Source: Deltaproteobacteria bacterium HGW-Deltaproteobacteria-13
GTDB lineage: Bacteria; Desulfobacterota; Syntrophia; Syntrophales; Smithellaceae
Direction: 5' to 3'
DNA: 39,864 nucleotides
Assembly: GCA_002840555.1 (NCBI GenBank)
Contig: PHBJ01000020.1
Location: 1-39,864, forward strand
Shown here: piece by piece, positions 11,592 to 31,816 of the stretch
How positions within the stretch are numbered: position 1 is the stretch's first letter
Layout of the letters: each line of letters starts with the position of its first letter
Notes under the pieces: model-generated
Databases searched by the model: none
Seen by the model: only the letters and a program-made list of their open reading frames with translations
Told to the model about the DNA's origin: nothing
Position numbers and translations under genes: made by a program

Positions 11592-11602
11592 CGGAACTAT
11601 AT

Positions 11603-12484: not shown

Positions 12485-12496
12485 GACACCTTTGTC

Positions 12497-12565
12497 ATTG
12501 CGAAGCGGCTCTCAGCCGCTGTGGCAATCTTTAAGTTTTTTGTCATTCCCGGCCCGATCGGGAAT
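12497..12565. repeat. Two adjacent REP-like hairpins
   Basis: Hairpin 1 (12497-12528) has arms ATTGC and GCAAT enclosing AGCGGC/GCCGCT. Hairpin 2 (12545-12565) has arms ATTCCCG and CGGGAAT. Both are preceded by TTGTCATT or TGTCATT. Such units are common extragenic repeats in this bacterial group (by recall). They lie between the stop of nhaA and the start of the acyltransferase gene. Confidence 0.7.
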
Positions 12566-12586
12566 CCAGTATTTTTTAATTAAGTG

Positions 12587-13780
12587 TTATGTCCCCTTAA
12601 TTCCTAAATTGTTTGATGTATTGGCTGTCTGTCTATTCAAGATTAAAAAACCGACAGTAGCCGCCGCAAGTGAACCAAGTAAAATACTAATCTTCGAACT
12701 TTGGACAATTTCTGGATTGTCAAAAGCCAGGATCGTGACAAAGATGGACATTGTAAAACCGATACCTCCTAGAAAACCTGCACCAATAATATGTTTCCAT
12801 GATACATCATCTGGTAATTGAGATAATCCCATTTTGACCGCCAACGCGCTGAATAGAAAAATACCCAGCGGCTTCCCGACAAACAAGCCCGCGAAAATAC
12901 CCAGGCTGTTTAATGTTAACAAGCCCTCCGTCCAATTTTCTGTCAAGGTAATACAAGTATTGGCAAGAGCAAAAAGTGGTATGATGATTAAGGCTACTGG
13001 TCTATGCAGGAAATGCTGAAGCTTGTAGGATGGAGATTCTTCATCGCCATTCGCAAAAGGAATGGCAAAAGCAAGAAGAACGCCTGTTATTGTGGGGTGG
13101 ATGCCGGATTTGAGCATAAAGTACCACATAAAAAATCCGGGAATTAGATAAAATGATAATCGATAGACACGAAGTCGATTGAGTATCAGTAACCCTGCAA
13201 ATATACTTAAAGACAGGAAGAGATTTAAAAACGATAAATTGCCCATATAAAATAAAGCAATAATGACAATTGATCCCAGATCATCTATAATGGCAAGCGA
13301 AGCAAGAAAAATCTTTAGCGATATGGGGATTCTATTACCCAATAACGCGAGAATTCCAAGCGCAAACGCAATGTCTGTTGCTATAGGGATACCAAACCCG
13401 GCTTGAGTTTCCGTTCCCCGATTAAGCAGGAAGTGCAATAGAGCGGGAGTTGCCATGCCGCCAATAGCAGCAAAAAAAGGCAGAGTTGCATTCTTTAGAT
13501 CAGATAGTTCTCCAATATAAAGTTCTCTTTCAATTTCAAGTCCGATCAGCAGGAAAAAAATTGCCATCAATCCGTCATTGATCCAGTGTCCAATACTATA
13601 TTTTAGAGCAACAACACCTGCTTCAAATCCAATTTTGTTATGCCAAAAATCAAGGTAATCTTTTCCGAAATAGGAATTTGCAATAATAATAGAAAGAACT
13701 GTACAGAGAATTAATATAATTCCCGAAGTTTTTTCACTTTCAAAAAATTCCGTGAATAGTTTTGTCAGTGTTTTTTTCAT
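12587..13780 (-). CDS. nhaA: Na+/H+ antiporter NhaA
   Basis: 397 residues from the ATG at 13780. A longer frame to 13828 would overlap the upstream gene. About twelve membrane helices are visible. Diagnostic motifs: GHWINDGLMAIFFLLIGLEI near the N-terminus, IPIATDIAFALGILALLG (D136, equivalent to Asp133 of E. coli), and LAIIDDLGSI with the paired D166-D167 that bind Na+/H+. The C-terminal helix GAGFLGGIGFTMSIFV is also typical. Known: electrogenic Na+/H+ exchange across the inner membrane. It has no evident role in the biosynthetic pathway. Its AT-rich codon use contrasts with the flanking GC-richer genes, and repeats lie just downstream, so it looks like a later insertion into the operon (inference). 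It starts seven bases after the preceding stop and could be co-transcribed. Confidence 0.96.
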   Translation of the reverse strand: MKKTLTKLFTEFFESEKTSGIILILCTVLSIIIANSYFGKDYLDFWHNKIGFEAGVVALKYSIGHWINDGLMAIFFLLIGLEIERELYIGELSDLKNATLPFFAAIGGMATPALLHFLLNRGTETQAGFGIPIATDIAFALGILALLGNRIPISLKIFLASLAIIDDLGSIVIIALFYMGNLSFLNLFLSLSIFAGLLILNRLRVYRLSFYLIPGFFMWYFMLKSGIHPTITGVLLAFAIPFANGDEESPSYKLQHFLHRPVALIIIPLFALANTCITLTENWTEGLLTLNSLGIFAGLFVGKPLGIFLFSALAVKMGLSQLPDDVSWKHIIGAGFLGGIGFTMSIFVTILAFDNPEIVQSSKISILLGSLAAATVGFLILNRQTANTSNNLGIKGT

Positions 13781-13787
13781 TAATTTA

Positions 13788-16700: not shown

Positions 16701-16859
16701 CTGGCGCGCGTCAGACAGTACCGGATCATTTTGCGGCATGGACTCCAGAATGTCCGTTTCGATTTGCAGGTTTTTAGATTCCCAGAAAAAAAGCGCCGCG
16801 ACAATCAGGGCAACAATAAAGACAATAGACCACTTTATTTTATATTTACCAAGAGACAT
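13788..16859 (-). CDS. MMPL/RND-type exporter fused to a SAM-dependent methyltransferase
   Basis: 1023 residues from the ATG at 16859 (AAGG five bases upstream); a GTG two codons earlier is possible. The first 780 residues are an MMPL-type transporter: an N-terminal helix (about 10-26), an extracytoplasmic domain, a helix bundle at about 265-400 (GGAIMAFTVDLGITYLLF), a second anchor near 437-455, a second soluble domain, and a second bundle near 640-780 (VVIMGMGIDYAIYYI). The last 170 residues are a class I methyltransferase with motif I RIIDIGCGYGVPANW, acidic YGLEPDEERV and VDYVLMLDMLHLI. Known: MMPL proteins move polyene lipids or lipid precursors; aryl-polyene loci usually encode exporter and methyltransferase separately. 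The fusion suggests methylation coupled to export at the inner membrane (inference). The linker is basic and probably cytoplasmic. Confidence 0.92.
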   Translation of the reverse strand: MSLGKYKIKWSIVFIVALIVAALFFWESKNLQIETDILESMPQNDPVLSDARQIIKHLPIQDKVFIDLEQTSPDRDKLVSTAVFLSDKLGKSGLFTKVGIGDDAKNFPELIAHVNNNLPSLMSASDLEQKITPLLKPDKIREAMAQNRQSLEQLEGIGRSEMMSKDPLGFSGVILGRMSALLPANKAQFYQGQLLSEDGRHALIIARIAGSGTDTSTAAKIEKLIGDCRKDLAAKTDLKNQYVLSSVGAYRAALDNETIAKRDTRLAIILTTLGIALLLIFAFPRPLIGLLALLPSSIGAIAALAVCSFLFKSMSMLAVGFGGAIMAFTVDLGITYLLFLDQPHSTDGKQVARELWSAELLAVLTTVGAFLLLLISDFKIMAEIGVFSALGVTFALLFVHIVFPKIFPAMPPAKRRTNRFLFDAIKNIAAPAKWKLVAAIVFGLIMLFFAKPVFNVDLNTMNSMSQNTINADKKMQSVWGSLSGKCYVLLEAPDIAQLREKDKQLTNVLAADIRQEKLSPVFLPSVLFPTAESARSNFAAWRAFWNKDHVAALRRDLSAAGRENGFAPDAFAPFWKIIHQENPGTFEIPQKYFEMLGIAQSSAGYSQLSLLAAGKYYNADNFFKRISTGGVAKIFDADLFNKRLSEFLKNLFLEIAILISIGLALVIFIFFLDWQLSLATIAPIVFALVATLGTLKIIGHPIDIPGIMLWVVIMGMGIDYAIYYICTYQRYPDEKSPAMQNIKLAMFLAAFTTLIGFGVLAFASHALLRSIGLVSLLGIFYSLIGSYFILPVLMQKIFTPGQYPAGKFQTGSREHLRRTVLRYRHLPTYPRVFVRMKMMMDPMFKELDKYVQNPHRIIDIGCGYGVPANWLLEIYPEAKVYGLEPDEERVLVASYAIGHRGRVEVGRAPDLPEVEGKVDYVLMLDMLHLISDHEVQIAFQRIYEKLDTGGTLLIRATIPSPRKVPWKRWIEAVRLKVVGMGNRFRPENEITGFMAAAGFDVKVHASLTAGVEEKWFVGKKITD

Positions 16860-16949
16860 GAACACCTTGAAATTCGTTTGTTTATAAGAGTTTGACGCAG
16901 ATTTTATAAACCATATTTTGCAGACAGTGGCAAGACAAAAAGCCTTACT

Positions 16950-16977
16950 TTGTCATTATCCGGCTCGCAGACCGGCG
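16950..16977. repeat. REP-like repeat, inverted copy of part of the 18.6-kb element
   Basis: These 28 bases match the reverse complement of 18661-18688 at 27 positions (start TTGTCATTA, end GACCGGCG). They lie in the 303-base space between the MMPL-methyltransferase and GT2 genes, which otherwise holds only the hairpins at 17058-17145. Confidence 0.75.
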
Positions 16978-17057
16978 AATGCTGATATCCAATAGTTTTT
17001 CCTCCCTCGATGGGAGGAAATTAAAAGGAGGGTAGAATTTCTCCCGCCTCTCTTCTT

Positions 17058-17145
17058 CCCCCTTTCGCAAAGGGGGATTGAGGGGGATTTTTCAACTGGG
17101 ATAATTGCGTAAAATCTCCCCTAACCCCTCTTTAGAAAAGAGGGG
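17058..17145. repeat. Repeat of consecutive C/G-run hairpins
   Basis: A perfect hairpin CCCCCTTT-CGC-AAAGGGGG (17058-17076) is followed by GAGGGGGATTT, which can pair with AAATCTCCCC, and then a perfect nine-base hairpin CCCCTCTTT-AGA-AAAGAGGGG (17125-17145). I know this class as a dispersed extragenic repeat of deltaproteobacteria. It follows the GT2 stop closely upstream of the MMPL gene and could act as a transcription pause or terminator. Confidence 0.75.
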
Positions 17146-17162
17146 AATATATTTGTTTGTAA

Positions 17163-17873
17163 TTATTTCAGAAAAAATATCCGGCGGAAAATCAAACGGG
17201 TGAAGGTTGAAGAATTGCGGCAGAAATCGACAAAGGGACGGAAATGAGAAATTCTTCCTCCTTCAGGATTGTAGCGAACACGAATGGGCGCCTCGATCAC
17301 CGGGATGCCGTTGCGGTTGGCGTGCGCCAGAATTTCAACTTCAAACTGAAAGCGACGCGCTTTTGTTTTTAATTGAAGCGCCTCGGGCAGGGGATAAATG
17401 CGAAAGCCGCTTTGCGAGTCGGATATTTTCGGGCCGCCGGAAGTCTGGACCCAAAAATTGGAAAATTTCCGTCCGAAGCTGCTTGTCCACGGAACATTTT
17501 TGCCGGTCATGCCAACTCTTGCGCCCGCGACAATTGGCCGCGAATTTTCAGGAATGGCGTTGATAAGATTTCGCGCATCTTCCGGATAGTGCTGACCGTC
17601 GGCGTCAATGGTGATGGCGAAGTCGGCCACAGAAGAAGCTGCCGCAAAGCCCGTCAGGATGGCCGCGCCCTTGCCCTGGTTTTGCTCATGCCGCAGAATT
17701 GTAATGTCTGCTATATCTTTAATCTGATCGTAAGTGTTATCGGTTGAGCCGTCGTCAACAACAAAGACAGGGAAACGAAAGGCCTGTGCCTGCTTGACAA
17801 CCCGCGCCACCGTCCCGGCATGATTATAAACGGGAATCACAAAGGCAAAACGGTTTTTGTTTTTGATGGTCAT
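17163..17873 (-). CDS. Family 2 glycosyltransferase (dolichyl-phosphate mannosyltransferase-like)
   Basis: 236 residues, a bare GT-A domain without membrane helices. Nucleotide-sugar binding is shown by FVIPVYNHAG near the N-terminus, VVDDGSTDNTYD (about 39-50) and D90-A-D92 in ITIDADGQHYPEDA. QSGFRIYPL and FEVEILAHA-N are typical of DPM-like polyprenyl-phosphate and lipid glycosyltransferases. Known: sugar transfer from a nucleotide or prenyl-linked donor to a lipid or other acceptor. GT2 enzymes of this size are regular members of aryl-polyene-type clusters, where they are thought to glycosylate the lipid anchor, so the acceptor here is probably the cluster's lipid. It starts 13 bases after the stop of the DUF429 gene. 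Confidence 0.9.
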   Translation of the reverse strand: MTIKNKNRFAFVIPVYNHAGTVARVVKQAQAFRFPVFVVDDGSTDNTYDQIKDIADITILRHEQNQGKGAAILTGFAAASSVADFAITIDADGQHYPEDARNLINAIPENSRPIVAGARVGMTGKNVPWTSSFGRKFSNFWVQTSGGPKISDSQSGFRIYPLPEALQLKTKARRFQFEVEILAHANRNGIPVIEAPIRVRYNPEGGRISHFRPFVDFCRNSSTFTRLIFRRIFFLK

Positions 17874-17886
17874 ATTAATTTATGTT

Positions 17887-18480
17887 TCATTCTCTTGGAA
17901 ACCAATAAGATATTGGCTTGCCACTGGGGAAAAACGGATTATCTTCTCTAGTGACGAGATCGCTCCATTTACTGTGATTTCTTGCCATTGCCCATGCCGA
18001 GTACGCAGCGATTGCTGCATCGCGTTCATGTTCAGTGCTAGAGGATGGGAAGTTTTCCGCAAGAAATATTTTAGTTTCAGCCCATATTAGAAGTAAGGCC
18101 TTAGGATGGGTCTCTGTGATCTGTGCGTCCGGCCACCTTTCGGATATCTTACGGGCGGCAAGTATACCCTGAACAAGGCATGCTCCACGAAGGGAGTTAA
18201 CATGAGAGACAGTACCTGAATGCCCACCAGCGGCACAGACTCGCTTTCTAATATGAGTATCCACATATCGATCTCCCTGTTCTACCCAGAACATAGGAGA
18301 ATCAATACCCACTGCTAATGGATTGGTTTTGCCACTAGCTTCATATGCCAAATCTAGAGCGGCCAGTCCGTACGAGGTGATACCAGTTTTCAAGTCTGAA
18401 GGGTTTCCTGTCGGATCAATGCTAAGTACAGCCCAGCCGAAACGCCTATAACCACCTGGGTCAAAACCGAATAAGTTCAT
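17887..18480 (-). CDS. DUF429-like predicted nuclease-fold protein
   Basis: 197 residues. Family landmarks by recall: GFDPGGYRRFGWAVL at the N-terminus (RNase H-like first strand with its aspartate), VGIDSPMFW in the middle, and HERDAAIAAYSAW near the C-terminus, where DUF429 proteins carry a D-A-x-x-A-Y motif. The biochemical role of DUF429 is not established; an RNase H-like fold has been predicted. GAGGTG precedes the ATG at good distance. It sits between two repeat-rich intergenic regions and has no obvious role in polyketide or lipid synthesis, so it may have been carried in with the repeats (inference). Codon use is less GC-rich than in the neighbouring GT2 gene. Confidence 0.65.
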   Translation of the reverse strand: MNLFGFDPGGYRRFGWAVLSIDPTGNPSDLKTGITSYGLAALDLAYEASGKTNPLAVGIDSPMFWVEQGDRYVDTHIRKRVCAAGGHSGTVSHVNSLRGACLVQGILAARKISERWPDAQITETHPKALLLIWAETKIFLAENFPSSSTEHERDAAIAAYSAWAMARNHSKWSDLVTREDNPFFPSGKPISYWFPRE

Positions 18481-18594
18481 AGCACCTCGTAAACAATAAA
18501 GTCAGTATAAATCGAGAAATATATACTGCATAAGACGTTTCCGTATTTTCCTAAGAATTTACAAATAGCACAAAAAGTAAAATTGTTAAACCAT

Positions 18595-18688
18595 TGTCAT
18601 GCCGGACTTGATCCGGCATCCAGGAATAAACAAAACTGGATTACCCGGTCAACCGGCATGCGCCGGTCTGCGAGCCGGGTAATGACAA
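18595..18688. repeat. Composite REP-like cruciform
   Basis: The outer arms TTGTCAT and ATGACAA enclose hairpin GCCGGA-CTTGA-TCCGGC and a second palindrome ACCGGC-ATGC-GCCGGT nested inside ACCCGG/CCGGGT. The part at 18661-18688 recurs in inverted orientation at 16950-16977. With the next element it fills the 370-base gap between the DAK2-DegV and DUF429 genes, in which I see no gene. Confidence 0.75.
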
Positions 18689-18734
18689 AGAAGAGGTTGC
18701 CACACCGCGCAAGGTACGGCCTGCATGACAACAT

Positions 18735-18862
18735 ACTAACGGCTTCGTAAAAAGCTCTATATGCAAGGCGCGCGAGTCCTGAGGAATGAGACATATCTTT
18801 TCATACGTTGCAATGACGAAGGGCGAAGCGCAACGCAGCAGGTGGACTTTTTACTGAGTCGT
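18735..18862. repeat. Palindromic intergenic element reaching into the 3' end of the DAK2-DegV gene
   Basis: Terminal arms GTAAAAAGCTC and GGACTTTTTAC are imperfect inverted repeats enclosing GC-rich sequence with GCAAGG, GAGGAATGAGAC, CATACG and GACGAAGG blocks. Its right arm contains the TAA stop of the DAK2-DegV gene, so the element appears to have replaced or created the gene's end. Its general form resembles the palindrome at 9181-9297. Confidence 0.6.
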
Positions 18863-20590
18863 TCCCTCAGGGAGGAAGGCGATTCCCCATGTCCCCGGCC
18901 CCATATGTGCGCCCGACGTCAGCGACAGCGGCTGCATGATAATTTCCGCCTGCGGATAGTGTGTTGTCACCAATTTTTTAACAGTGCCTTCCACCCAATT
19001 TTTATTGTCGGAATATTCCAGCATGATAAGAGCGTGGGCATCATCTTTAATGGAAGCGTCAAGTTTGGCCAGCGCAAACTTCACCTGGTCTTCCTGATTT
19101 TTCGCCGTGCCGACTTTTTTTGCTCCTTCGGGAAGAGGCGATATCACCGGCTTCATGTTCAGCATTTCGCCGAAAAAGGCGCTGGTTTTGGAAAGACGGC
19201 CGCCCGCGGCCAGATATTGAAGTTTATCGAGAAAAATATATTCTTCGCAGGTGCTGATGGCTTTTCGTGCAAAAACGACGGCGCTTTTCATATCATTTGT
19301 TTCGGAAAGTTTTCTAACTGCTGCCAGGGCGATTGTGGCCAACCGGCCTGATGCCGCTCCGGTGTCCATTATTAATAATTTGTCCTGCGGGTCGTGCTCT
19401 TTTTTCCACTGAAGCGCCGCCTGATAGTTGCCGGTAAATACGGAGCCGACGCACAGATATAAAACTTTTTCAAATCGCTCCACGACGCTTTGGTAGAACT
19501 GATGCCTTTCATAAACGGAAGCCTGGGAAGTGGATACCTTTATGCCCTTCTTCATCGCCTTGTAGAGTTCTTCGGGATGAAAATAAGTTTCCGGCAGGCA
19601 TTTTTCGCCAATTGTCAGATAACTGTTCAGAAGCGTGAATCCATATTGTTTAGCGTCCTGATTTGTCAGGGAACCGGCGGCGTCGGTCATTATATGGAAT
19701 GCCTGCGCGGTATTGGACTGCCGGAATTCCCGGACTTGAGAAGCCAGATTATCATCTTCCCATTTAATCACATTGCCCAGCCCGCTTATTTGATCCCTGA
19801 CTTTTTCTTTATCGCCGGTATGCAGATGAATTTTATAAAAATCACCTTCGGGAATGATAATGACATTTTCCTGATCGCCGGTGATTATCTTTAATACATC
19901 AGGCGGATAATTCGGAGCCTTAACGACAAAATCAACGCAATACCCTGATTCCGTCTCTTCCTGAAATGAAGAAGATATCTTCAGACGATTTTTAAATGTT
20001 TTGGTAACCGGACGGCAATCATCGGGCAGATTGGCAAGGGTGTGGAAAAATCCTTCGAAGAAAATATAAATACCCAGTGCGCCCGCGTCCACGACCCCCG
20101 CTTCTTTTAAACGGGGCAACTGCTCGTAAGTTTCATGGACAGCTTTTTCCAGGGACCCGATAATAGTATCTACGGTTTTTCTGTCGGGATTAATTTCTCG
20201 CGGCAGAACATCAGCAAGAGCGTCAAAGACACTCAACATGGTTCCCGGACGCGGATTGCTCACTGCCTGCCAGGCTTTGACGGCGCCTTCTTTTGCGCAA
20301 TCTGCCAGTTCAGAAACATTTCCCGCGGCACAAAAAGAGGAAAAAAACTGTGAAGCGATATTGCCGGAATTGCCGCGCGCCGATAAAAGAAGCTCATGAA
20401 CAAGCTTTTCTTCGGGCTTGCCGATATTATGCAGCGGAGTGAGGCTCAGGGAAAGATTTCTTCCGGTGTCTCCATCAGCGACCGGAAACACATTGATGGA
20501 ATCAAGCAGGTCCGCCCGGGCAATGAGACGTTCCAGACCGGCAATAAATGATTTTTGTAAAACGTCTTCCATTTTAGAAACCGAAAGCAT
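18851..20590 (-). CDS. DAK2 (DhaL-like) domain fused to DegV domain; fatty acid kinase-like
   Basis: 579 residues. The N-terminal part (about 8-200) is a DhaL/DAK2 ATP-binding domain: INVFPVADGDTGRNLSLSL with D39 and D41 for Mg-ATP, SARGNSGNIASQF, RPGTMLSVFDAL, and VVDAGALGIYIFFEGF. A linker domain follows. The last 290 residues are DegV: HIMTDAAGSLTNQ, VSTSQASVYE, LCVGSVFTGNY, DTGAASGRLA, LQYLAAGGRLSK and LNMKPVISPL. Known: FakA (DhaL-like) phosphorylates fatty acids presented by FakB (DegV), so this fusion joins both halves. Inferred: it presents and activates free acyl chains released by the neighbouring thioesterase. GGAAG precedes the ATG at 20590; an ATG at 20572 would avoid the 17-base overlap with the thioesterase gene. 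Its stop lies inside a repeat. Confidence 0.88.
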   Translation of the reverse strand: MLSVSKMEDVLQKSFIAGLERLIARADLLDSINVFPVADGDTGRNLSLSLTPLHNIGKPEEKLVHELLLSARGNSGNIASQFFSSFCAAGNVSELADCAKEGAVKAWQAVSNPRPGTMLSVFDALADVLPREINPDRKTVDTIIGSLEKAVHETYEQLPRLKEAGVVDAGALGIYIFFEGFFHTLANLPDDCRPVTKTFKNRLKISSSFQEETESGYCVDFVVKAPNYPPDVLKIITGDQENVIIIPEGDFYKIHLHTGDKEKVRDQISGLGNVIKWEDDNLASQVREFRQSNTAQAFHIMTDAAGSLTNQDAKQYGFTLLNSYLTIGEKCLPETYFHPEELYKAMKKGIKVSTSQASVYERHQFYQSVVERFEKVLYLCVGSVFTGNYQAALQWKKEHDPQDKLLIMDTGAASGRLATIALAAVRKLSETNDMKSAVVFARKAISTCEEYIFLDKLQYLAAGGRLSKTSAFFGEMLNMKPVISPLPEGAKKVGTAKNQEDQVKFALAKLDASIKDDAHALIMLEYSDNKNWVEGTVKKLVTTHYPQAEIIMQPLSLTSGAHMGPGTWGIAFLPEGTTQ

Positions 20591-20990
20591 TGCGGATTTC
20601 TTCCGGAATACTGAATAATATTTCCATCTCCGGAGTTTTTACCGCCACCTGCTCCGTGCGGCCGCGGGCGCAGATCTTGCCGTCTTCCGCTTTTCTGATT
20701 TCAAAATCAACGACCAGTTTGACGTACGCGTCAACGATAGTTGCCTTGCAGACGATTTCGTCCCGATGACGCAAAGGGAAAATATGTTTTGTCGAGGTTT
20801 TGATGATGGGGAAGATTATTTTGTCCCGGCCGTAAAAGGAATAAAGATCAACGCCGTTATTTTCGAAGAGCGCCGCCCGCGCGATTTCAAAATAGTTCAG
20901 ATAGTTGGCGTGCCAGACGATCTGCATGGGATCGAGATCAAAAAACGGCACCCTTATTTTCACTTCGAAACTTTTTCGATTTTCTTTCAT
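20574..20990 (-). CDS. Hotdog-fold acyl-CoA/ACP thioesterase (4HBT type)
   Basis: 138 residues, normal length for a 4HBT-like thioesterase. The catalytic stretch is FFDLDPMQIVWHANYLNYFEIARAALFE: an acidic D-x-D (D18, D20), then V-W-H and the long helix. ICARGRTEQVAVKTPEMEI forms the last strands. Known: hydrolysis of aryl-, hydroxybenzoyl- or fatty acyl-thioesters; aryl-polyene clusters contain such an enzyme. It is coupled to the ammonia-lyase gene by an ATGA overlap and overlaps the DAK2-DegV start, so the three form one translational chain. It probably releases a polyene or aryl-acid chain from ACP or CoA. Confidence 0.92.
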   Translation of the reverse strand: MKENRKSFEVKIRVPFFDLDPMQIVWHANYLNYFEIARAALFENNGVDLYSFYGRDKIIFPIIKTSTKHIFPLRHRDEIVCKATIVDAYVKLVVDFEIRKAEDGKICARGRTEQVAVKTPEMEILFSIPEEIRNAFGF

Positions 20991-22540
20991 TGTTTAATAC
21001 CAAAAAAATCGGAATATTTTATGGCCATGCAAATATTTTCTATATCTTCATCCATCGCTCTGTCTTCTAAAACAGGCGCGCTGACCAATCTGATTTTTTC
21101 CATGATTTCGGCCAGAAGAGGCCGTGCCGTGATATTGTCTCTTATATCACAGGCCTGCGCCGCCGCCAGAAGATGAATGGCCACAACGCGCTCCGTCAGC
21201 GTGCAGATTCTTTCAGCGTCGCGCGCCGCGATGGTTCCCATGCTGACCTTATCCTGATTGTGGGATTCGGTGGAGCGCGAGAACGAAGCCGCCGGCATGG
21301 TCGCTTTCAGGGCTTCCGCCGTGAGTGCAGACGATGAAATGGACATGGCCTTAAAGCCATGATGCAATCCCGTTTTCTTGTCCGTGTTTCTTACCAGATC
21401 GCCCGGGAGTCCCCTGTTTAAGTTCGGGCTGACCAGAAGCATGATCTGGCGGTCGCACATATCGGCAATAGATGCCAGCGCGGCTTTCAAGCCGTCCATG
21501 GCGAAAGCGATATGCCCGCCGTAAAAATTACCGCCCATCATCACCTCGCCTGTCGCTGGATCGAAAATCGGATTATCGTTGGAGCTGTTGGCTTCAATTT
21601 CCACCCATTTCTTGATCCAGTCCAGTCCGTCATATAAAACACCCGCCACCTGCGGAGCGCAGCGCAGCGAATAAGGGTCCTGCAGCGTGTCCAGCGAGTC
21701 ATCTTCCAGGTGACGCGCCGACACTTTAGTTTTTAAAAGATGAATAATCCGGGCGGCAACAAAAGCCTGACCGGGGAATGGTTTGGCTTGGGCGATGACC
21801 GGATGATAATGCCTTGCGTTTCCCTTGAGGGCGTGAATGGAAAGCGCCGTCGCGTAAATTGCTGCGGATAAAATTCGCCATGCCGATTCGACAGCGATCA
21901 CGGCTATTCCCGTCATGGTCGTTGTACCGTTAACAATCGCCAGAGGTTCCTTGGGCAGATAACGGTAAGGCTTTAATCCCGCCAACTTCAGGGCCTTTGC
22001 CGCGGACATGATCTTGTCCTGGTAAATAACGTCGCGCTCGCCCATGAGACACGCTCCGATATAAGACATCGGCGTCAAATCGCCGGACGCGCCGACCGAT
22101 CCCTCGCAGGGAACTATCGGCGTTATGCCGTGATTCAGGAAATCGGCCAGTTGCTGAAGCAGGGCGACAGATACGCCGGAATAACCGCGCGCGAGACAAA
22201 TAATACGGCACAGCATGGCCGCTCTTGTTTCCTCAATGCCGATGGGCTCTCCCGTGCCGCAGCCGTGAAAACGAAGAATGTTGACGCCGTTTTTCAGAGC
22301 GATATCCAGCGGCATGCGCTTGCCGCAAGATTTGCCGTAGCCGGTTGTCACGCCATAAACGGGAACACCCTTGCGCATGGATTCCATGAGCATTTTTTGA
22401 GTTTTTCCCATCATCTTGATGAACTTGCCGGATTTGCTGATTTGCACCGGAACTCCGTAGCGCGCTATGGCTATAATATCATTGAAGCTGACATGGCTGC
22501 CGTCAATAACCACGGCGGCTTTGTTTCCATTTTTTTTCAT
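20987..22540 (-). CDS. Aromatic amino acid ammonia-lyase (HAL/TAL/PAL family)
   Basis: 517 residues, the usual length. The self-processing MIO tripeptide A151-S152-G153 lies in GSVGASGDLTPMSYIGA. Also present: Y62 in VYGVTTGYGKS (catalytic tyrosine loop), NGTTTMTGIAV, QDPYSLRCAPQVAG, NSSNDNPIFD and ESHNQDKVSMGT. At the selectivity switch it reads RFHGCGTG with H92, as in histidine and tyrosine lyases rather than the Phe-Leu of phenylalanine lyases, so tyrosine (giving 4-coumarate) or histidine is more likely than phenylalanine. That is a prediction. Known: deamination to an alpha,beta-unsaturated arylacrylate. There are no hutU, hutI or ftcD genes nearby, so histidine degradation is unlikely; it more plausibly supplies the aryl starter for the polyene/lipid pathway. 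It starts three bases after the upstream radical SAM stop. Confidence 0.95.
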   Translation of the reverse strand: MKKNGNKAAVVIDGSHVSFNDIIAIARYGVPVQISKSGKFIKMMGKTQKMLMESMRKGVPVYGVTTGYGKSCGKRMPLDIALKNGVNILRFHGCGTGEPIGIEETRAAMLCRIICLARGYSGVSVALLQQLADFLNHGITPIVPCEGSVGASGDLTPMSYIGACLMGERDVIYQDKIMSAAKALKLAGLKPYRYLPKEPLAIVNGTTTMTGIAVIAVESAWRILSAAIYATALSIHALKGNARHYHPVIAQAKPFPGQAFVAARIIHLLKTKVSARHLEDDSLDTLQDPYSLRCAPQVAGVLYDGLDWIKKWVEIEANSSNDNPIFDPATGEVMMGGNFYGGHIAFAMDGLKAALASIADMCDRQIMLLVSPNLNRGLPGDLVRNTDKKTGLHHGFKAMSISSSALTAEALKATMPAASFSRSTESHNQDKVSMGTIAARDAERICTLTERVVAIHLLAAAQACDIRDNITARPLLAEIMEKIRLVSAPVLEDRAMDEDIENICMAIKYSDFFGIKQ

Positions 22541-22543
22541 TAG

Positions 22544-23803
22544 CTAAACATCCCCTTTCTTCGCAGGCATCACCTGCTGACGAACGCGCGGCTTGTACGT
22601 GCCGTCCGCTTTTTCTTTATCCATTACTTTTTTCAACATCTTGAACATTTTGTAATTTTGCGGCTCTTCCTCGTAGAATTTATCCCAGGCGTAATAATAA
22701 AGGTTCTGCAATTCTTCGGGTTTCAATAATTTGGGCTGAAAAACAACTTTTCCGCAAGTGTAATCATTCCAGTCGTAGGAAAAAATTCTTTTCTCATTAT
22801 GCAGATCGTCAAAAGTACGTGTGTGCGGAAAAGGCGTGAGCACGGTAAATTCCGCCATGTCCAGATCGACCTCCAGCAGAAAATCAACCAGTTTTTTTAT
22901 GTAATCTTCCGTGTGATAATCGAGTCCCAGCAGGATGCTTCCTTCCACCGCAATGCCGTAATCGTGATAGCGCTTGATGCGGTCGCGGATGAAATCAGAA
23001 GAATCGAAAATCGCCTGATAGACAAACCATGCTCCGGCCTGCGCGGCCAGATCCAGCACCTTGTCGTCATCTTCAATAGGATGGCAGCACCACTTCTTTT
23101 TGAGTGGAATCATTTCCTTGAACAAATCCATTTCCCATTGCTTGTCCTGCGCCAGCGAATTATCCACAATGAAAAGCCGGTTGTTAGTAATGCTGGCCAT
23201 TTCTTCAACCACTTTATCAAAGGGGCGGGGACGGAAACTCCTTCCTCCCAGAAAATTAACGCAGCAGGGATAACAATTGAACCGGCAGCCGCGAGATGCG
23301 TGCACGAGATCAACCATCTGCACACCCCGGTAATTATAAGCTTCGCGGTTTAAAATACTGCGTCTTGCCGTTCCGACCGTTTCAATGGCCGGGAAGTTCT
23401 GCATATAGTTGTAAACTTTTTGCAGGTTGCCGTTTTTGAAATCGGCAAACACCTGTTCCATCCGGCCTTCGGCCTCTCCCAGAAAAACGCTGTCGGCGTG
23501 TTGTTGTGTTTCTTCGGCATGTAGCATCGTGGCGATGCCGCCGAAGATCACTTTTATTCCTTTTGCGCGGAACTTGTCGGCTATTTCCCAGCCGCGTTTA
23601 ATCTGCGCGGTCAGCATTACGGAAATGCCGATAAAATCGGCCGCCTGGTCGAAATCAATTTCCTGTATGTTTTCGTCAATAAATTCCACCTCCACATAAT
23701 CAGGCAGCGTCGCGGCAAAAACAACCGGCCCGTGCGGCGGCAATGTAAACCGTGTTTGACGGTCGAGCTTTTCCCATTTCGGGTAAATCAATTTAAATTT
23801 CAT
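22544..23803 (-). CDS. B12-binding-domain radical SAM protein (start of biosynthetic cluster)
   Basis: 419 residues from the ATG at 23803. A TTG six codons upstream gives a slightly longer form, but MKFKLIYPKW is a natural start for the family. An N-terminal B12-like Rossmann domain (GPVVFAATLPDYVEVEFIDEN, FIGISVMLTAQIKRG, IKVIFGGIATMLH, VFLGEAEG) is followed by the radical SAM motif C173-x3-C177-x2-C180 in HASRGCRFNCYPC. VEGSILLGLDYHTEDY and LTPFPHTRTF are typical of the class. It is the first gene of the minus-strand cluster and a paralog in architecture, not a close copy, of the enzyme encoded at 4066-5523. The substrate is unknown; it probably tailors or methylates the aryl/polyene product. 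The upstream region contains a long direct repeat rather than a clear promoter. Confidence 0.88.
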   Translation of the reverse strand: MKFKLIYPKWEKLDRQTRFTLPPHGPVVFAATLPDYVEVEFIDENIQEIDFDQAADFIGISVMLTAQIKRGWEIADKFRAKGIKVIFGGIATMLHAEETQQHADSVFLGEAEGRMEQVFADFKNGNLQKVYNYMQNFPAIETVGTARRSILNREAYNYRGVQMVDLVHASRGCRFNCYPCCVNFLGGRSFRPRPFDKVVEEMASITNNRLFIVDNSLAQDKQWEMDLFKEMIPLKKKWCCHPIEDDDKVLDLAAQAGAWFVYQAIFDSSDFIRDRIKRYHDYGIAVEGSILLGLDYHTEDYIKKLVDFLLEVDLDMAEFTVLTPFPHTRTFDDLHNEKRIFSYDWNDYTCGKVVFQPKLLKPEELQNLYYYAWDKFYEEEPQNYKMFKMLKKVMDKEKADGTYKPRVRQQVMPAKKGDV

Positions 23804-23843
23804 ATGTTGTCTTTCTACCAAATTATTTCTAAATTTTACAAGT

Positions 23844-26559: not shown

Positions 26560-26617
26560 CATCAAAAAAAGTTTTTTGTTACAGAATCATATTGATAAAA
26601 AACGTGAGACAAACGGA

Positions 26618-27649
26618 ATGAAAAAAGATTTATTGGCGACTTTGGCGGACGGCAATTATATCGATCAGGCCAGACAGCTTTTTTCCAGTGTTTATTGGAA
26701 TGCCGGTTGGAAAGGCGATTACATGCTTCTGGCTTATAATATTCCTGAAAAAGATTTGATATGGTTCAGGGATAAGGGAATTCTGGTCAGAGAATGCGAA
26801 CCGATATTGACGGAGTCTAAAACCCGCATCGGCCATGCTCCGTTAACTACTCTTTCCAAGTTCTATCTGTTCACGCCTGAATTTAAGAAATGGAAAAACA
26901 TTGTATTTCTTGACGGGGATATCATTGTCAGAGGGGCTCTGGATTCACTCACTGACGTGGAAGGATTTGCAGCGGTAAGAATTTTAAATATATTTCTGAC
27001 TAAGCTGAAAGGGCAATTTTGCAATCGCAATAATCTCAATAAGCATCTGTTTGAAAAACTCGAAGGCCAATGTGACTTGAGCCGCCCCGCGTTTAATTCT
27101 GGTGTGATGGCTTTTAACTCGGATATTATATCTGAAGATGATTTTCAGAATCTTAAAAATATAGTCTTTAATTTTAAAGACATTCTTCATATATCGGAAG
27201 AAACCGTTCTGAACATATATTTTTATAACAGGTGGCAGGGGTTGTCCCAGGTTTATAATGTCTGTCCCGGTTATGAGCTTTATCTTTCCGGCTGCGGCCC
27301 CGGTAATTTGAAAGCAATTATTTCCCACACCTACTCCAATTTTCCCGGAGGCAAGCCCTGGAGGTTGACCAGTCCCCTGTATCCCGAATGGAAATCGAAT
27401 CTGGACAGGGCCGATATGATTGATACCGCAACCCCAAGGGAGTCTGCAAAGATATTGAGCAAACGGGAAGAGGAAGAATATGATTCTTATTTGAAGAATC
27501 TGCAAAAACGTCATTTCCATAAATTTTACGGCTATAAAATACGCTATTTTTACACCTATAATCATTACAGACTGAGCGCGGGCGCGTATCTCAGAAAAAA
27601 TTATCCGCGGATCAATAAACTGCAAAGAAGGTTGAGGAATCTGGAATGA
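26618..27649 (+). CDS. Family 8-like glycosyltransferase
   Basis: 343 residues from the ATG at 26618. A TTG start at 26576 is also in frame, but the ATG fits the protein start MKKDLLATLADGNYIDQARQLFSS. GT8 landmarks are LTTLSKFYLFTP, NIVFLDGDIIVRGALDSL (DGD, metal binding), FNSGVMAFN, and SHTYSNFPGGKPW, the conserved H-x-x-G-x-x-K-P-W-like end. The C-terminus (about 280-343) is basic and tyrosine-rich. Known: retaining transfer of galactose, glucose or similar from UDP-sugars. It overlaps the next glycosyltransferase by four bases (ATGA), so they are translated together. Confidence 0.88.
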   Translation: MKKDLLATLADGNYIDQARQLFSSVYWNAGWKGDYMLLAYNIPEKDLIWFRDKGILVRECEPILTESKTRIGHAPLTTLSKFYLFTPEFKKWKNIVFLDGDIIVRGALDSLTDVEGFAAVRILNIFLTKLKGQFCNRNNLNKHLFEKLEGQCDLSRPAFNSGVMAFNSDIISEDDFQNLKNIVFNFKDILHISEETVLNIYFYNRWQGLSQVYNVCPGYELYLSGCGPGNLKAIISHTYSNFPGGKPWRLTSPLYPEWKSNLDRADMIDTATPRESAKILSKREEEEYDSYLKNLQKRHFHKFYGYKIRYFYTYNHYRLSAGAYLRKNYPRINKLQRRLRNLE

Positions 27650-28797
27650 AAAAGAACACGCCGGCGGAAGCTGCCGAAAGCGCCTCCCGGCCTGCCGGAC
27701 AGGAAATCGCGCGAAACGCCGTCTGCCTCTGCACCGACCGGAGAATGCTGATACCCGCGTTATTCGTTGCGTATTCGGTGAAGTCGCGCTCCGCCGCAGC
27801 GCATAAAAGCTTTGACGTTATAGTCTTCGCGGAGCCGCTGGAAGTGACGGATGTCCACAGGCGCTGGATGAAACAGCATGATATTCTTCTTTGCGAAGAC
27901 ATGAACATATCGCAAATGCGCGGCGTGGGTAAATTTCAGGAAAGGCTCAGCCCCGCAACCCTGATGAAACTGATGCTTGCCGGGCATCTCGCGGGTCGTT
28001 ACGAAAAAATCCTTTATCTGGACTGCGATCTGACCATACACGGCGACGTATCCGTTTTGTTTTCGCTGGATACCGCGCCGTTCGCGCTGGCGGCGGTTCC
28101 CTCGGGGCGTATTATGCTGGATTTAAGCCAGAAACAGCGCGAAGAGACAGAGAATCATTTTCATAACCTGGGAATGACCAGACCCTATCGCTTTTTTAAT
28201 ACAGGCGTCCTCTTAATAGACGTGGAAAGATGGAACAACGAAAAACCGGGCGAAAAAGCGCTGGAGTTCATCCGGCAAAATCCTGATCTCTGTTCGCTTC
28301 CCGATGAACACGCGCTCAACGCCGTTCTGGACGGAAGAATGGCTCAATTATCAACGGTATGGAATTGCGTGCCTCTTTCCCTGTGGCGCAAAGCGTCCGC
28401 CGGTCTTTATCATCCGGTTATTATTCACCATACAGGGGCTGTTAAACCGTGGCGCCGGTTTTGTTACGGCAGGGGTATTTTCTCCGACCGGTCGGCCTAT
28501 AAGATGTACAGGGATTTTCTGAAGGACTCGCCCTGGCCGAAGTGGCTCGACGAGCAGTGGACCCGGCGCGATCTGTATCTGAATATCAGGGGGGAAATCG
28601 GGAATATTCTGCGGCGATTGGGACTGCGGGGGAAATGGGAAGGCCCGTCGGCCGGACAGCGCCGGGAATATAAAAAAGCGGCCCGGCGGTTTTACGAAGA
28701 AGAGCGATTCGCGGATGTGGAGCAGGGGATAGTCCTGCGCGAAAAAGGCAGGCTTCGCGTCAGGGAAAGCAGCAGCCGGTCCGTAAAAAACAGTTGA
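27646..28797 (+). CDS. Family 8 glycosyltransferase (LgtC/glycogenin type)
   Basis: 383 residues. Motifs in order: NAVCLCTDRRMLIPALFVAYSV at the N-terminus, LMKLMLAGHL, YEKILYLDCDLTIHGDVSVLF with the D-x-D metal site, FFNTGVLLIDVERWN, SLPDEHALNAVL, and IIHHTGAVKPW. All fit GT8 retaining enzymes of the LgtC type. The C-terminal 90 residues are very basic, and may bind membrane or an anionic acceptor. Base composition is strikingly GC-rich compared with both flanking genes, so it may have a separate origin (inference). Its stop is followed immediately by the promoter of the RiPP-like genes. Confidence 0.92.
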   Translation: MKKNTPAEAAESASRPAGQEIARNAVCLCTDRRMLIPALFVAYSVKSRSAAAHKSFDVIVFAEPLEVTDVHRRWMKQHDILLCEDMNISQMRGVGKFQERLSPATLMKLMLAGHLAGRYEKILYLDCDLTIHGDVSVLFSLDTAPFALAAVPSGRIMLDLSQKQREETENHFHNLGMTRPYRFFNTGVLLIDVERWNNEKPGEKALEFIRQNPDLCSLPDEHALNAVLDGRMAQLSTVWNCVPLSLWRKASAGLYHPVIIHHTGAVKPWRRFCYGRGIFSDRSAYKMYRDFLKDSPWPKWLDEQWTRRDLYLNIRGEIGNILRRLGLRGKWEGPSAGQRREYKKAARRFYEEERFADVEQGIVLREKGRLRVRESSSRSVKNS

Positions 28798-28822
28798 CTT
28801 GAAAATTGAATTTCTCTATATT
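28794..28822 (+). promoter_or_regulatory. Sigma-70-type promoter of the RiPP-like operon
   Basis: The -35 TTGACT (28794-28799) and -10 TATATT (28817-28822) are separated by 17 bases. It starts inside the last codons of the GT8 gene and lies 38 bases before the precursor ATG, which has a strong AAGGAGG (28849-28855). This gives the precursor its own transcription start, probably at higher output than the glycosyltransferases. Confidence 0.75.
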
Positions 28823-28860
28823 TACGGAACTAGTGAATTATTATTTATAAGGAGGGGAAA

Positions 28861-29016
28861 ATGAAAAGAGATAAACAGTGGGAAAAACCGCAGGCCGATG
28901 TGATGAAAAGAAAAAGTACAAAGAAAGCCGCCGGTTCATCTAAAAGCCGCGATGCGCGTTTTGGCCTGGGACCTCTTGCTCCTCCGACGCCTCCATACAG
29001 AACCGATTTTGTATAG
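28861..29016 (+). CDS. Candidate RiPP precursor peptide (51 aa)
   Basis: A short frame with a near-ideal AAGGAGG and promoter. The N-terminal region is charged and carries W7-E-K-P10-Q-A-D-V14, which fits the aromatic-x-x-P-x-x-x-aliphatic leader motif bound by PqqD-like recognition elements (YxxPxxxL in lasso peptide leaders). The middle is Lys/Ser-rich (RKSTKKAAGSSKSRDAR). The C-terminal part is quite different: FGLGPLAPP followed by TPPYRTDFV, rich in Gly and Pro with one Tyr and one Phe. The peptide is directly followed by a PqqD-like gene and a radical SAM gene. There is no cysteine, so sactipeptide thioethers are excluded; a modification at Tyr, Pro, Arg or Asp, or cleavage, is possible. 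I do not recognise a described precursor family. The frame could be called too short for automatic annotation. Confidence 0.75.
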   Translation: MKRDKQWEKPQADVMKRKSTKKAAGSSKSRDARFGLGPLAPPTPPYRTDFV

Positions 29017-29095
29017 TAAATTCTGAAAAATCGATTCCATCATCTTAATATTCCATTAAGATCGGAACCAGCAGGTTTTTATTCAGGTAAATTTT

Positions 29096-29416
29096 ATGAA
29101 AAAAAATATCAACCCGGATGCCGTATACGCGGCATCCGATTCTGTAGTGGTGCGTTTGGTCGAGAATCAGATTGTTCTCTTATCCATTGATCCCGGTGAA
29201 TCCGGCGGCGACGAAGCGGACAATGAACCGTACTTTCTCAACACAACAGGCCGGATTATCTGGCGGAAGATGGACGGACGCAAAAACCTAAAGGATGTAG
29301 TGAAGGTTCTGTCCGCCGAGTTCAGGACTCCGGCAAAAGTTATCGAAAAGGACGTTGCCGCGTTTGTGGAGAAACTGGTTGAAAGAAAATTTCTTGTCAT
29401 GGTTTCAGAGAGTTGA
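29096..29416 (+). CDS. PqqD-like RiPP recognition element protein
   Basis: 106 residues with the PqqD fold pattern: a beta-hairpin region (VYAASDSVVVRLVENQIVLLSID), then YFLNTTGRIIWRKMDGRKNLKDVVKVLSAEF with the conserved L-N-x-T-G-x-x-I-W motif, and a C-terminal helix D-V-x-x-F-V-E-x-L-V-E-R-x-F-L. Known: PqqD and other RRE domains bind the leader peptide and deliver the precursor to the modifying enzyme. It sits between the precursor and the radical SAM gene, with only six bases before the latter. AGG lies about eight bases before the ATG. This is the strongest sign that the small upstream frame is a precursor. Confidence 0.92.
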   Translation: MKKNINPDAVYAASDSVVVRLVENQIVLLSIDPGESGGDEADNEPYFLNTTGRIIWRKMDGRKNLKDVVKVLSAEFRTPAKVIEKDVAAFVEKLVERKFLVMVSES

Positions 29417-29422
29417 TTTATC

Positions 29423-30904
29423 ATGCCGTACGATAAAGTAATCAAAGATTCCGATATTGAGTACATACGGGAACAAACCGGCTGGGCCTATCAGGACATG
29501 AAATGGCTCTCGAAGGAAGAGGCGGTAAAAGCCGGCAGCGAAAGGAACGCATTACTGCAATCCGTATCCGGCAGAGTCATAAAACATTTCAATGAAAGCA
29601 AAATATCGACAGGGCCATTGTCCCCCGGATGCATGACCTGCGGGAAAGGCACGTGGTCGTGCATTTTCATAGGTTCGCTTTGCACGGCAAACTGTTTCTA
29701 CTGTCCCCAGGACAGAAAACAAAAAAAGGATGAACCGCCCAACGAATCGGGGCTCATTTTCAATGATCCGGACGACTATGTGGATTATCTGGAAAAATTC
29801 AAATTCAAAGGGGTGAGTTTTTCCGGGGGAGAACCTTTCCTTAAGTTTAAGGAAGTGCTCGCCTTCATCAAGAAAATCAGGAAACGGCTGGGCAGGGGAA
29901 TCTATATTTGGGTTTACACAAACGGCGACCTGGTTGATGAAAAGAAGTTAAAAGCCCTGAAGCAGGCCGGTCTTAACGAAATACGGTTCGATATCGCAGC
30001 CAGAAAATACAGCCTGAAGGCTGCGAAAATGGCAGCAGGCATTATCGACAGGGTGACGGTCGAGATTCCCGCCGTTCCGGAAGATTATGAAATACTGAAA
30101 AAATGCCTGCCGAAAATGAAAGCGATGGGCGTGGCGCATTTGAATCTGCATCAGTTAAACGCCACCGAGCAATGTTTCAGGCCGTTTATCGATCACGGAT
30201 ACACTTTTTTGCACCAGCCCAACATAGCCGTTCTGGAATCGGAGATGACCGCGCTCAGGATTGTTAAAGACGTTCTGGATAACAATATCGGATTATCCGT
30301 CAACTACTGCACTCCGGTCTATAAACACAGATTTCAGAAGAAAGCCTACCGGAAAAGATTCCAGCCGTATATCAAAGAAAAATACGAGGATCTGACGGAA
30401 TCGGAATTTATCAGGCGGCTGTCCGTTCAGGATAAACCGGCAAATTTAAAGGAAATCGTCCGCGCGTTTCAGAAAAGCAAATGCGATGGCGGACTTTGGT
30501 TTTTTGACGAAAGAGAAAATAAACTGTTTTTTCATCCTTCGCTTCTGGATAAGATTGATTCCGGCAGGCATAACCTGATTGTAAACTATTACACGCCGAT
30601 GCTGACGACGGTTCCCGGAAAAGAGGATGAGGGTGTCAAAGAAGTCGTGCTCAACGCCCGACGGAAATTTATGGTTGAAAGAAATCTTTTGCACGAACTG
30701 ACGATAGATAATCCCGCGGCGGTAAAGTTCTTTCAGGAGCTGTTCATTGAAAAAAAGAACGAAAGGGATGTCCTCAAAAGATTTTACAGCGACTATGATC
30801 TGAAAACAAAAGCCGATGTCAATGAGATGATGAATGAAAAAGACAATATATGTTATTTAAAAACATGGGAATTTGTCGGCAGCGGACTTTACGAAATTTA
30901 CTGA
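29423..30904 (+). CDS. Radical SAM enzyme, candidate RiPP maturase
   Basis: 493 residues. The cluster-binding motif is C87-x3-C91-x2-C94 in SLCTANCFYCPQD. Three further cysteines, C70, C73 and C80 (PGCMTCGKGTWSC), precede it and may bind a second cluster or metal. The SAM-binding glycine motif is FSGGEPFLKF, and WVYTNGDL and LNEIRFDIAA follow. VTVEIPAVPEDYEIL, HLNLHQLNATEQ, VLESEMTALRIV and SVNYCTPVYKHRFQ characterise a radical SAM family that I recall from anaerobes but cannot tie to a reaction. No classical SPASM domain with seven cysteines is visible at the C-terminus. Context (precursor and PqqD-like genes directly upstream, same strand) makes it the likely peptide-modifying enzyme. It may instead be a conserved housekeeping-type radical SAM protein that has acquired these neighbours. 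Confidence 0.85.
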   Translation: MPYDKVIKDSDIEYIREQTGWAYQDMKWLSKEEAVKAGSERNALLQSVSGRVIKHFNESKISTGPLSPGCMTCGKGTWSCIFIGSLCTANCFYCPQDRKQKKDEPPNESGLIFNDPDDYVDYLEKFKFKGVSFSGGEPFLKFKEVLAFIKKIRKRLGRGIYIWVYTNGDLVDEKKLKALKQAGLNEIRFDIAARKYSLKAAKMAAGIIDRVTVEIPAVPEDYEILKKCLPKMKAMGVAHLNLHQLNATEQCFRPFIDHGYTFLHQPNIAVLESEMTALRIVKDVLDNNIGLSVNYCTPVYKHRFQKKAYRKRFQPYIKEKYEDLTESEFIRRLSVQDKPANLKEIVRAFQKSKCDGGLWFFDERENKLFFHPSLLDKIDSGRHNLIVNYYTPMLTTVPGKEDEGVKEVVLNARRKFMVERNLLHELTIDNPAAVKFFQELFIEKKNERDVLKRFYSDYDLKTKADVNEMMNEKDNICYLKTWEFVGSGLYEIY

Positions 30905-30934: not shown

Positions 30935-31816
30935 ATGATAAAAAAATTATTATTTAGCATCCTCAGAAGAGGTTTCGGCCGATGTCTGCCGGACAGGATC
31001 TATCTTTTGCTGATGTACAGAAGAAATCTTCGCAGACCTTTGAATCTGAAAAATCCCCGGGCCTTCACCGAAAAAATTCAGTGGCTTAAATTAAATTGGC
31101 GCTATGACATTCTCACAAAATGCGCGGATAAATACGAAGTGCGAAAGTTTGTGGAAGAAAGAATCGGCCCGGGATTGCTCAAAGAGTTATATGGCGTTTA
31201 TAAAAAACCGGAAGAGATTGACTTTAATCGGCTTCCGGATGCGTTTGTATTAAAAGTCAATCACGGCTGTAAGCAAAATATATTCTGCAAAAATAAATCG
31301 GACCTTGATTGGAATTCGACCACTCGTCTGTTAAGAAAATATTTAAGAGCTAATCTTTTTCCCAAGTCCAGAGAATGGGCGTACAAAAAGATTACTCCCC
31401 GCATCATTTGTGAAGAGCATCTGACAAAGGACGGCGAAACCCTGTATGAGTATGGTTTCTATTGCTATGACGGTGTTCCGCGCCTGGTGGAGATCAATGA
31501 ATACAGTCCCGGATCAAAGCGGGTCAACATGTTTGACATCGATTTACATCTTACGGAAAATGAATATATGGATCCTCCTTTATCCCTACCGGCTACTAAG
31601 GATCCGCAGTATGAGAAGATGCTTGAAGACGCCGCTGTATTATCCAAAGGATTTCCTTTTGTCCGGGTGGATTTGATTTTTGTAAATCACAGGATTTACT
31701 TTGGAGAAATGACCTTCTATCCTCTGGCCGGATTCGGCTGGATAGCTCCCGAATCTTTTAATTATTTTCTCGGTTCTTATTTAAATCTTCCCGTGTTACC
31801 GCCCAAATATTTTTAG
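30935..31816 (+). CDS. TupA-like ATP-grasp protein
   Basis: 293 residues. Recognised by LKNPRAFTEKIQWLKLNWR near the N-terminus, CADKYEVRKFVEERIG, LPDAFVLKVNHGCKQN, ICEEHLTKDGE and FVRVDLIFVNHRIYFGEMTFYPLAGFG, the pattern of the TupA-like ATP-grasp family. Known: ATP-grasp enzymes form amide or ester bonds through acyl-phosphates. TupA-like members are often next to glycosyltransferases in teichuronopeptide, capsule or exopolysaccharide loci, where TupA joins amino acids to a glycan. It follows the radical SAM gene by 30 bases. Two readings exist: it belongs to the glycosyltransferase set at 25.6-28.8 kb, or it attaches the peptide or an amino acid to another molecule. The ribosome binding site is weak. 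Confidence 0.85.
   Translation: MIKKLLFSILRRGFGRCLPDRIYLLLMYRRNLRRPLNLKNPRAFTEKIQWLKLNWRYDILTKCADKYEVRKFVEERIGPGLLKELYGVYKKPEEIDFNRLPDAFVLKVNHGCKQNIFCKNKSDLDWNSTTRLLRKYLRANLFPKSREWAYKKITPRIICEEHLTKDGETLYEYGFYCYDGVPRLVEINEYSPGSKRVNMFDIDLHLTENEYMDPPLSLPATKDPQYEKMLEDAAVLSKGFPFVRVDLIFVNHRIYFGEMTFYPLAGFGWIAPESFNYFLGSYLNLPVLPPKYF

Follow-up and report, generated by a model that had tools for sequence, protein, structure and literature searches.

W/Y/LxxP has been reported as the recognition sequence for PqqD-type RREs, and its WxxP form is common to the PqqD, FusE, McjB and StsC RRE groups (PMC12710340). The RRE-Finder study flags combinations of an RRE with a glycosyltransferase and leaves their chemistry unassigned (PMC7470986). 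SynChlorMet (with ScmD), GeoRSP and similar rSAM/PqqD cassettes join a PqqD, a radical SAM enzyme and a small peptide, as does the locus described here.

The window, the whole stretch of 39,864 nucleotides that was analysed, is one complete contig (G000:C28) of a 3.5 Mb Smithella-type genome in 29 contigs. In our view it probably carries a RiPP cassette of six genes, comprising two GT8 glycosyltransferases, a precursor peptide, a PqqD-like RRE, a radical SAM maturase and a TupA-like ATP-grasp protein. The product is possibly a glycosylated proline-rich peptide. The features are as follows.

26576..27649, + strand: GT8 glycosyltransferase a (PF01501, 3.3e-14)
27646..28797, + strand: GT8 glycosyltransferase b, directly 5' of the precursor (PF01501, 2.9e-33)
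28794..28822, + strand: sigma-70-like promoter serving the precursor, TTGACT-17-TATATT (10/12 matches)
28850..28855, + strand: ribosome binding site AGGAGG, 5 bases 5' of the precursor ATG
28861..29016, + strand: precursor peptide gene, 51 aa, ATG start (homologues in 5/5 genomes, dN/dS, profile search)
29096..29416, + strand: PqqD-like RRE, leader-binding by prediction, 106 aa (PF05402, E 2.2e-13)
29423..30904, + strand: predicted radical SAM maturase, 493 aa (PF04055, E 5.3e-15)
30935..31816, + strand: TupA-like ATP-grasp protein of the amide ligase family, directly 3' of the radical SAM gene (PF14305, 1.3e-40)

A sequence-only reading had placed the precursor, PqqD-like and radical SAM genes at exactly these coordinates, all on the + strand and with six bases (29417-29422) between the last two, and both protein identifications were borne out by Pfam. 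That reading depended on a homologous small frame lying 5' of related PqqD/radical SAM pairs. The genus includes four further genomes with a close radical SAM enzyme (63-89% identical), namely G011, G007, G002 and G008, and in 4/4 a homologous frame of 49-56 codons sits just 5' of the PqqD-like gene, giving a homologue in the same place in 5/5 genomes with the window included. Because the five cassette genomes belong to the same genus and are close relatives, their shared gene order does not amount to five independent observations. A precursor profile run against 155 genomes of the order returned five strong matches (E 6e-23 or better), each adjoining the radical SAM gene, and nine further matches at E 0.01-0.1; in the alignment behind these searches, the G011 and G007 rows lack the initial Met. 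One additional match in G086 (E 7.9e-6, 22 residues, in the Pro block) lies opposite a long gene frame with no enzyme nearby, and was therefore treated as spurious. The 51-aa peptide itself has no match in Pfam or NCBIfam.

The leader of the window peptide carries W7xxP10, and its conserved block reads R33-F34-GLGP-LA-PPTPP. Fourteen residues are invariant among the five homologues (K2, W7, P10, M15, K16, K22, R33, G35, G37, P38, P41, P42, P44 and P45), and the core keeps the block R-[F/Y]-(0 or 2)-GxGP-(1 or 2)-PPxPP throughout. The predicted conservation of the WxxP leader is thus confirmed, but not that of the end PYRTDFV, which had been proposed as a conserved part of the core: the C-terminal tail (YRTDFV in the window) differs in length and sequence among homologues. 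The statement that the precursor has no cysteine is correct for the window peptide and does not extend to 2/5 homologues, those of G011 and G007, which have one Cys each.

The precursor frame is under purifying selection, with dN well below dS. NG86 dN/dS was 0.076/0.274 against the nearest relative, G011 (47 codons only), and 0.345/1.376 against G007 (49 codons only), which fits translation, as the sequence-only reading had expected. Gaps between the window and G011 are 9 and 3 bases within the frame and 14, 15, 1 and 4 bases just outside it. The start codon and Shine-Dalgarno sequence are kept in 5/5 genomes; in the window the latter is the AGGAGG noted earlier as an ideal ribosome binding site. 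These results bear on the view, already disfavoured, that the 51-codon frame is untranslated and that its conservation reflects RNA or chance. The frame is short and the precursor-PqqD transcript can fold (z about -1.9 in the window and about -1.2 in G011), but dN below dS, in-frame gaps and a conserved start and Shine-Dalgarno sequence make this view very improbable.

A sigma-70 promoter of the precursor's own had also been claimed. A scan of the window alone was not above chance (7 found, compared to a mean of 5.5 in shuffles), but TTGACT-17-TA[TC][AC]TT recurs 5' of the peptide frame in 5/5 genomes, hexamers and 17-base spacer included, and the claim stands on that recurrence. A regulatory hairpin between the precursor and the PqqD gene was considered and found not convincing (z -1.91, -1.24, -0.34, -0.46 and -2.47 in the five genomes).

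The PqqD-like protein scores 50.8 bits with PF05402, above the Pfam gathering score of 23.4. Its closest PDB sequence match is TbiB1 (E 0.0015), and the top PDB fold matches of its model are PqqD 5sxy (1.0e-3) and the lasso RRE TbiB1 5v1u (4.0e-3). The model shows the beta-hairpin plus three-helix winged fold at modest confidence (mean pLDDT 63.7), with a poorly modelled middle part. The protein reaches the cut-off of 0/7 matched NCBIfam models; the nearest is PqqD TIGR03859, at 39.3 bits against a cut-off of 46. The WxxP invariant in 5/5 precursor leaders is consistent with binding by this protein.

Related PqqDs elsewhere in the order point in the same direction. Those of G041, G031 and G035 are 44-45% identical to the window protein and adjoin quite different 61-aa precursors starting ME[KD][DN]NKQWQKPEL. 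The leader string QWQKPEL is common to these peptides and to the G007 homologue of the window precursor, MKKDRQWQKPEL. Thus leader and RRE are common across systems and core and maturase differ, a pattern that would be expected of leader-guided pathways.

The clusters of these three genomes (L074, L075 and L077 of G041, G031 and G035) each contain the Cys-rich 61-aa peptide (QWQKPELIALVRSKPEETVLMGCKSC...) and a PqqD, along with a pair of radical SAM proteins, a protein similar to signal peptidases and a large one resembling an ABC exporter; none of their proteins scanned reached an NCBIfam cut-off. Separately, six-frame arrays of about 27-32 aa peptides of the type MKKEYEKPELVVYEDLSDVTTGG occur at L086 (G000:C15, 6021-7360) and L025 (G029:C59, 8535-12500), adjoining PqqD, HprK-like and PF14907 nucleotidyltransferase genes. 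The lasso model NF033528 matches these arrays below threshold (20.4 against 33). The L086 array, which lies in the same genome as the window, may be another peptide system of the leader type.

Of the 11 Cys in the radical SAM enzyme, six are arranged as C70-x2-C73-x6-C80-x6-C87-x3-C91-x2-C94, in which C87xxxC91xxC94 is the CxxxCxxC cluster motif that accompanies the PF04055 match. Every full-length relative examined keeps C-x2-C-x6-C-x6-C-x3-C-x2-C. C296 is likewise invariant across the 17 non-Smithella relatives compared, a set that leaves out G103 and the window genome's own paralogue. These conserved cysteines would fit an enzyme that binds a further metal site besides its SAM cluster. No SPASM domain was found in the enzyme by Pfam at E up to 10, nor was an NCBIfam cut-off reached among the best 25 of 38 matched models; the PqqE model TIGR02109 gave 20.7 bits against a cut-off of 381. 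In the predicted structure, the C-terminal part (about 385-483) forms a beta-hairpin and three helices, with pLDDT 81-90 at 421-480 and below 50 at 393-418. Support for a C-terminal RRE in this part is weak by profile comparison (probability 2%, E 0.025), and Pfam found no PqqD match inside the window protein. A PDB fold search with the enzyme returned only the general radical SAM fold.

These features allow us to weigh the idea of a cofactor precursor: the peptide would play the part that PqqA plays for PQQ, and residues cross-linked by the radical SAM enzyme would be excised to give a small redox cofactor or metallophore. PqqD is the nearest NCBIfam model of the RRE, there is a single, low-copy precursor per genome and the cassette has no exporter, as this idea would have it. 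However, the radical SAM enzyme lacks a SPASM domain, and the peptide lacks both a PqqA-like Glu-Tyr pair and any NCBIfam or Pfam match. Furthermore, to our knowledge its Pro-rich core is unlike known cofactor precursors. We regard a cofactor precursor as unlikely.

Matches to the radical SAM enzyme were found in 11/197 relatives, all 11 of them among the 155 genomes of the order. Apart from the close enzymes, the seven remaining matches within the order show 38-43% identity or, in two cases, lower coverage. In a 25-row tree, which left out L090 (frame not recovered) and the truncated L099 and used only the radical SAM part of G229, the five Smithella rows cluster with L015 (Omnitrophica), G029, G229, L016 (Methanothrix) and L017; support for this 10-row clade (84/98) is under the stricter mark. 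The locus of 8/10 clade rows includes a PqqD-like gene: the five Smithella rows, G029, G229 and, weakly, L015 (PF05402 20.8 bits against 23.4). None was seen in the stretches available for L016 and L017, and 0/17 loci of relatives outside the clade have one, with 6.6-19.5 kb scanned at each. One of the PqqD profiles used included its own positives; rebuilt without L015, L025, L086 and G229, it recovers L086 (1.3e-12), L025 (2e-10) and G229 (0.0011), not L015. In G029, a 90-aa PqqD-like gene has a PF14907 nucleotidyltransferase gene on one side and an HprK-like gene on the other, and the locus holds six frames of 27-31 aa of the type M/LK[KQE][DE]YE[KT]P[EA]L.

The radical SAM family with the six-Cys motif is therefore mostly stand-alone, without an RRE. 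The sequence-only reading was right that the enzyme has six cysteines, which are a trait of this wider family and not specific to the pathway. With most of the family lacking an RRE, and none in the stretches seen for L016 and L017 in the clade, the basic role of the family need not be RiPP maturation. At L017 (4291-7461), the relative adjoins frames that by eye we take to resemble SelD, YedF and DUF1858, so that the family may also touch selenium metabolism. Both the stand-alone habit and these selenium-metabolism-like neighbours would suit an enzyme acting on some other substrate, a sugar or a protein, beside a small frame that is regulatory or unrelated. Against this stand the leader motif, the RRE and the fact that peptide and enzyme strictly co-occur in 5/5 genomes, and we consider it decidedly unlikely for the window.

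The six-gene cassette extends beyond the three genes that had been taken for a complete minimal RiPP unit. Precursor, RRE and radical SAM genes are indeed conserved together, but two GT8 genes 5' and the TupA-like ATP-grasp gene 3' travel with them, so the unit as described was not complete. In each of the five loci the peptide genes are bordered by homologues of GT8a, GT8b and the TupA-like protein. The GT8a homologue is 72-77% identical and lies 5' of the cassette in 4/4 other genomes; the GT8a frame in the window opens at TTG, and the methionine of MKKDLL, about codon 15, suits the relatives better. GT8b is present in 5/51 family genomes (E 1e-40), a set identical to the cassette carriers. 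A TupA-like homologue of 65-77% identity adjoins the cassette in 4/4 other genomes, the G011 copy ending at a contig edge. Across the family, TupA-like ATP-grasp proteins occur in 8/51 genomes, with at least 65% identity in the same five and 36-42% in the other three. In G007, one extra gene, with a sub-threshold galactosyltransferase match, lies between GT8a and GT8b. Outer genes, including the GT2 gene at 25609 and a porin, are common to the window and G011 only.

Unit boundaries can be read from a comparison of G008 with G007. The two genes bordering the six in G008 have counterparts in G007 separated by 106 bases, and the flanking proteins are 87-94% identical; the G007 cassette sits a few kilobases from the position equivalent to that in G008. 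Since these boundaries enclose all six genes, the cassette behaves as one movable block. No protease or exporter conserved with the cassette was found among the genes common to the five loci; leader peptidases and exporters are often unlinked in known RiPP systems. The 8 frames scanned between 25609 and 33540 gave no match to a lasso cyclase (PF00733) or a B2 protease. Elsewhere in the window, at 4066-23821 on the - strand, frames that by eye look ketosynthase-, aromatic ammonia-lyase-, MMPL-exporter- and acyltransferase-like together resemble an aryl-polyene-type lipid locus, and two more appear to be B12-type radical SAM proteins.

Members of the GT8 and TupA-like families are best known for their part in making lipopolysaccharide or teichuronopeptide. 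The RiPP cassette could accordingly consist of precursor, RRE and radical SAM enzyme only, with the GT8 and ATP-grasp genes serving surface polysaccharide synthesis and linked to the neighbouring peptide genes only by block movement. In keeping with this, the top NCBIfam match of both GT8 proteins is LPS galactosyltransferase, although far below the cut-off, and the precursor has its own promoter. On the other side, the peptide genes of the five genomes lie between GT8b and TupA homologues, which are not found at similar identity in the 46 remaining genomes of the family; the G008 versus G007 boundaries take in all six genes, and a glycosyltransferase is fused to the same enzyme in G229. We judge this separation into two pathways a serious possibility, somewhat short of even. 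That the peptide itself is glycosylated, we put at just under an even chance.

The G229 locus (L100, G229:C271, genes in a row, oriented 3941-10521) comes from a genome 95% complete with 8% contamination. An 804-aa protein there consists of a PF11397 GlcNAc transferase (6.2e-66) fused to a radical SAM enzyme of the same clade, with a sub-threshold PqqD match at the end of the fusion (19.5 against 23.4 bits). 5' of the fusion are two further proteins, a PqqD-GT2 (35.2 bits with PF05402, cut-off 23.4) and one that is GT2-like but stays below the cut-off. A frame of 159 aa with KWTKPIV (WTKP) and five SSPTTPTPTP repeats lies 159 bases 3'. The fusion is a single example, found in 0/2 other genomes of G229's order; from this one genome, the arrangement suggests that glycosyltransferases may act together with this enzyme clade on substrates rich in Pro.

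PF11397 includes the eukaryotic hydroxyproline GlcNAc transferase of Skp1. Smithella are strict anaerobes, and so could not use O2-dependent prolyl hydroxylases. A speculative and rather unlikely extension is an O2-independent route to sugar-bearing Pro-rich peptides, in which the clade enzyme, guided by the RRE, would activate a GPTPPVPP-type core (for example by hydroxylation or cross-linking) for dedicated glycosyltransferases, GT8 in Smithella and the fused PF11397 GlcNAc transferase in G229.

For the six-gene cassette, we propose the following sequence of events. The precursor would be made from its own promoter, and the RRE would bind the WxxP leader and pass the peptide to the radical SAM enzyme. 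With SAM at C87/C91/C94 and a second metal cluster probably held by C70, C73, C80 and C296, the enzyme would abstract hydrogen within the core block R-[F/Y]-..-GxGP-..-PPxPP, most likely leaving a residue there that is oxidised, cross-linked or activated in some other way. Sugar and an amide-linked group would then probably be added by the two GT8 enzymes and the ATP-grasp protein, and leader removal and export would fall to genes elsewhere. Homology, conservation, selection on the peptide frame, the RRE fold and co-inheritance are computed results; leader binding, the order of steps, the radical reaction and peptide glycosylation are what we infer from them.

Compared with known systems, the window RRE resembles PqqD and other discrete RRE proteins (PF05402; PQQ, lasso) in fold, in Pfam membership and in having a WxxP leader next door, but its partner enzyme and core peptide differ, and it scores below every NCBIfam PqqD-type cut-off. 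The same is true for PQQ biosynthesis (PqqADE), where the window falls below both cut-offs (PqqD TIGR03859, 39.3/46; PqqE TIGR02109, 20.7/381). The likeness to SynChlorMet and GeoRSP extends to related PqqDs in the order whose leader carries the same QWQKPEL string; however, their SPASM-type radical SAM pair is absent from the window cassette, and the PqqD-like protein reaches only 32.5/100 bits with the ScmD model and 29.7/100 with GeoRSP. Sactipeptides and ranthipeptides share radical SAM maturation and an RRE, but the core Cys needed for thioether bonds is missing in 3/5 precursors and there is no SPASM match. The window RRE fold is closest to the lasso B1 protein TbiB1 and to PqqD, with a likeness to YxxP-type leaders, but no cyclase or B2 match was found among the window ORFs scanned around the cassette. 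As in the window, an RRE, a radical SAM enzyme and a glycosyltransferase occur together in predicted, uncharacterised RiPP clusters in the RRE-Finder study; in contrast to the fusions described there, the window RRE and GT8 are separate genes and come with a defined, conserved precursor (PMC7470986).

Known RiPP classes were rejected for the cassette by class-specific tests (SPASM, core Cys, lasso genes in the frames scanned around the cassette, and NCBIfam cut-offs), and the cassette was not found in the literature searched, which was limited to open-licence PMC papers; Smithella, SynChlorMet and GeoRSP were all absent from the best-matching of these. We conclude that an rSAM/RRE RiPP cassette not described before is very probably present here. 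Through it, a radical SAM family without annotation gains a likely substrate and a likely partner, so that the radical SAM chemistry is directly testable with three small genes. A Cys-free, proline-rich core is unusual for radical SAM RiPPs, and the cassette suggests that peptide maturation by radical SAM enzymes may be linked with glycosylation. The components are of known kinds, and it is the combination of this enzyme clade with a Cys-free, Pro-rich core and GT8/ATP-grasp proteins that was not found in the open-licence literature searched. With known components and no fit to an NCBIfam cassette among those tested, the system is hence a variant of the rSAM/RRE kind of RiPP and not a categorically new one.
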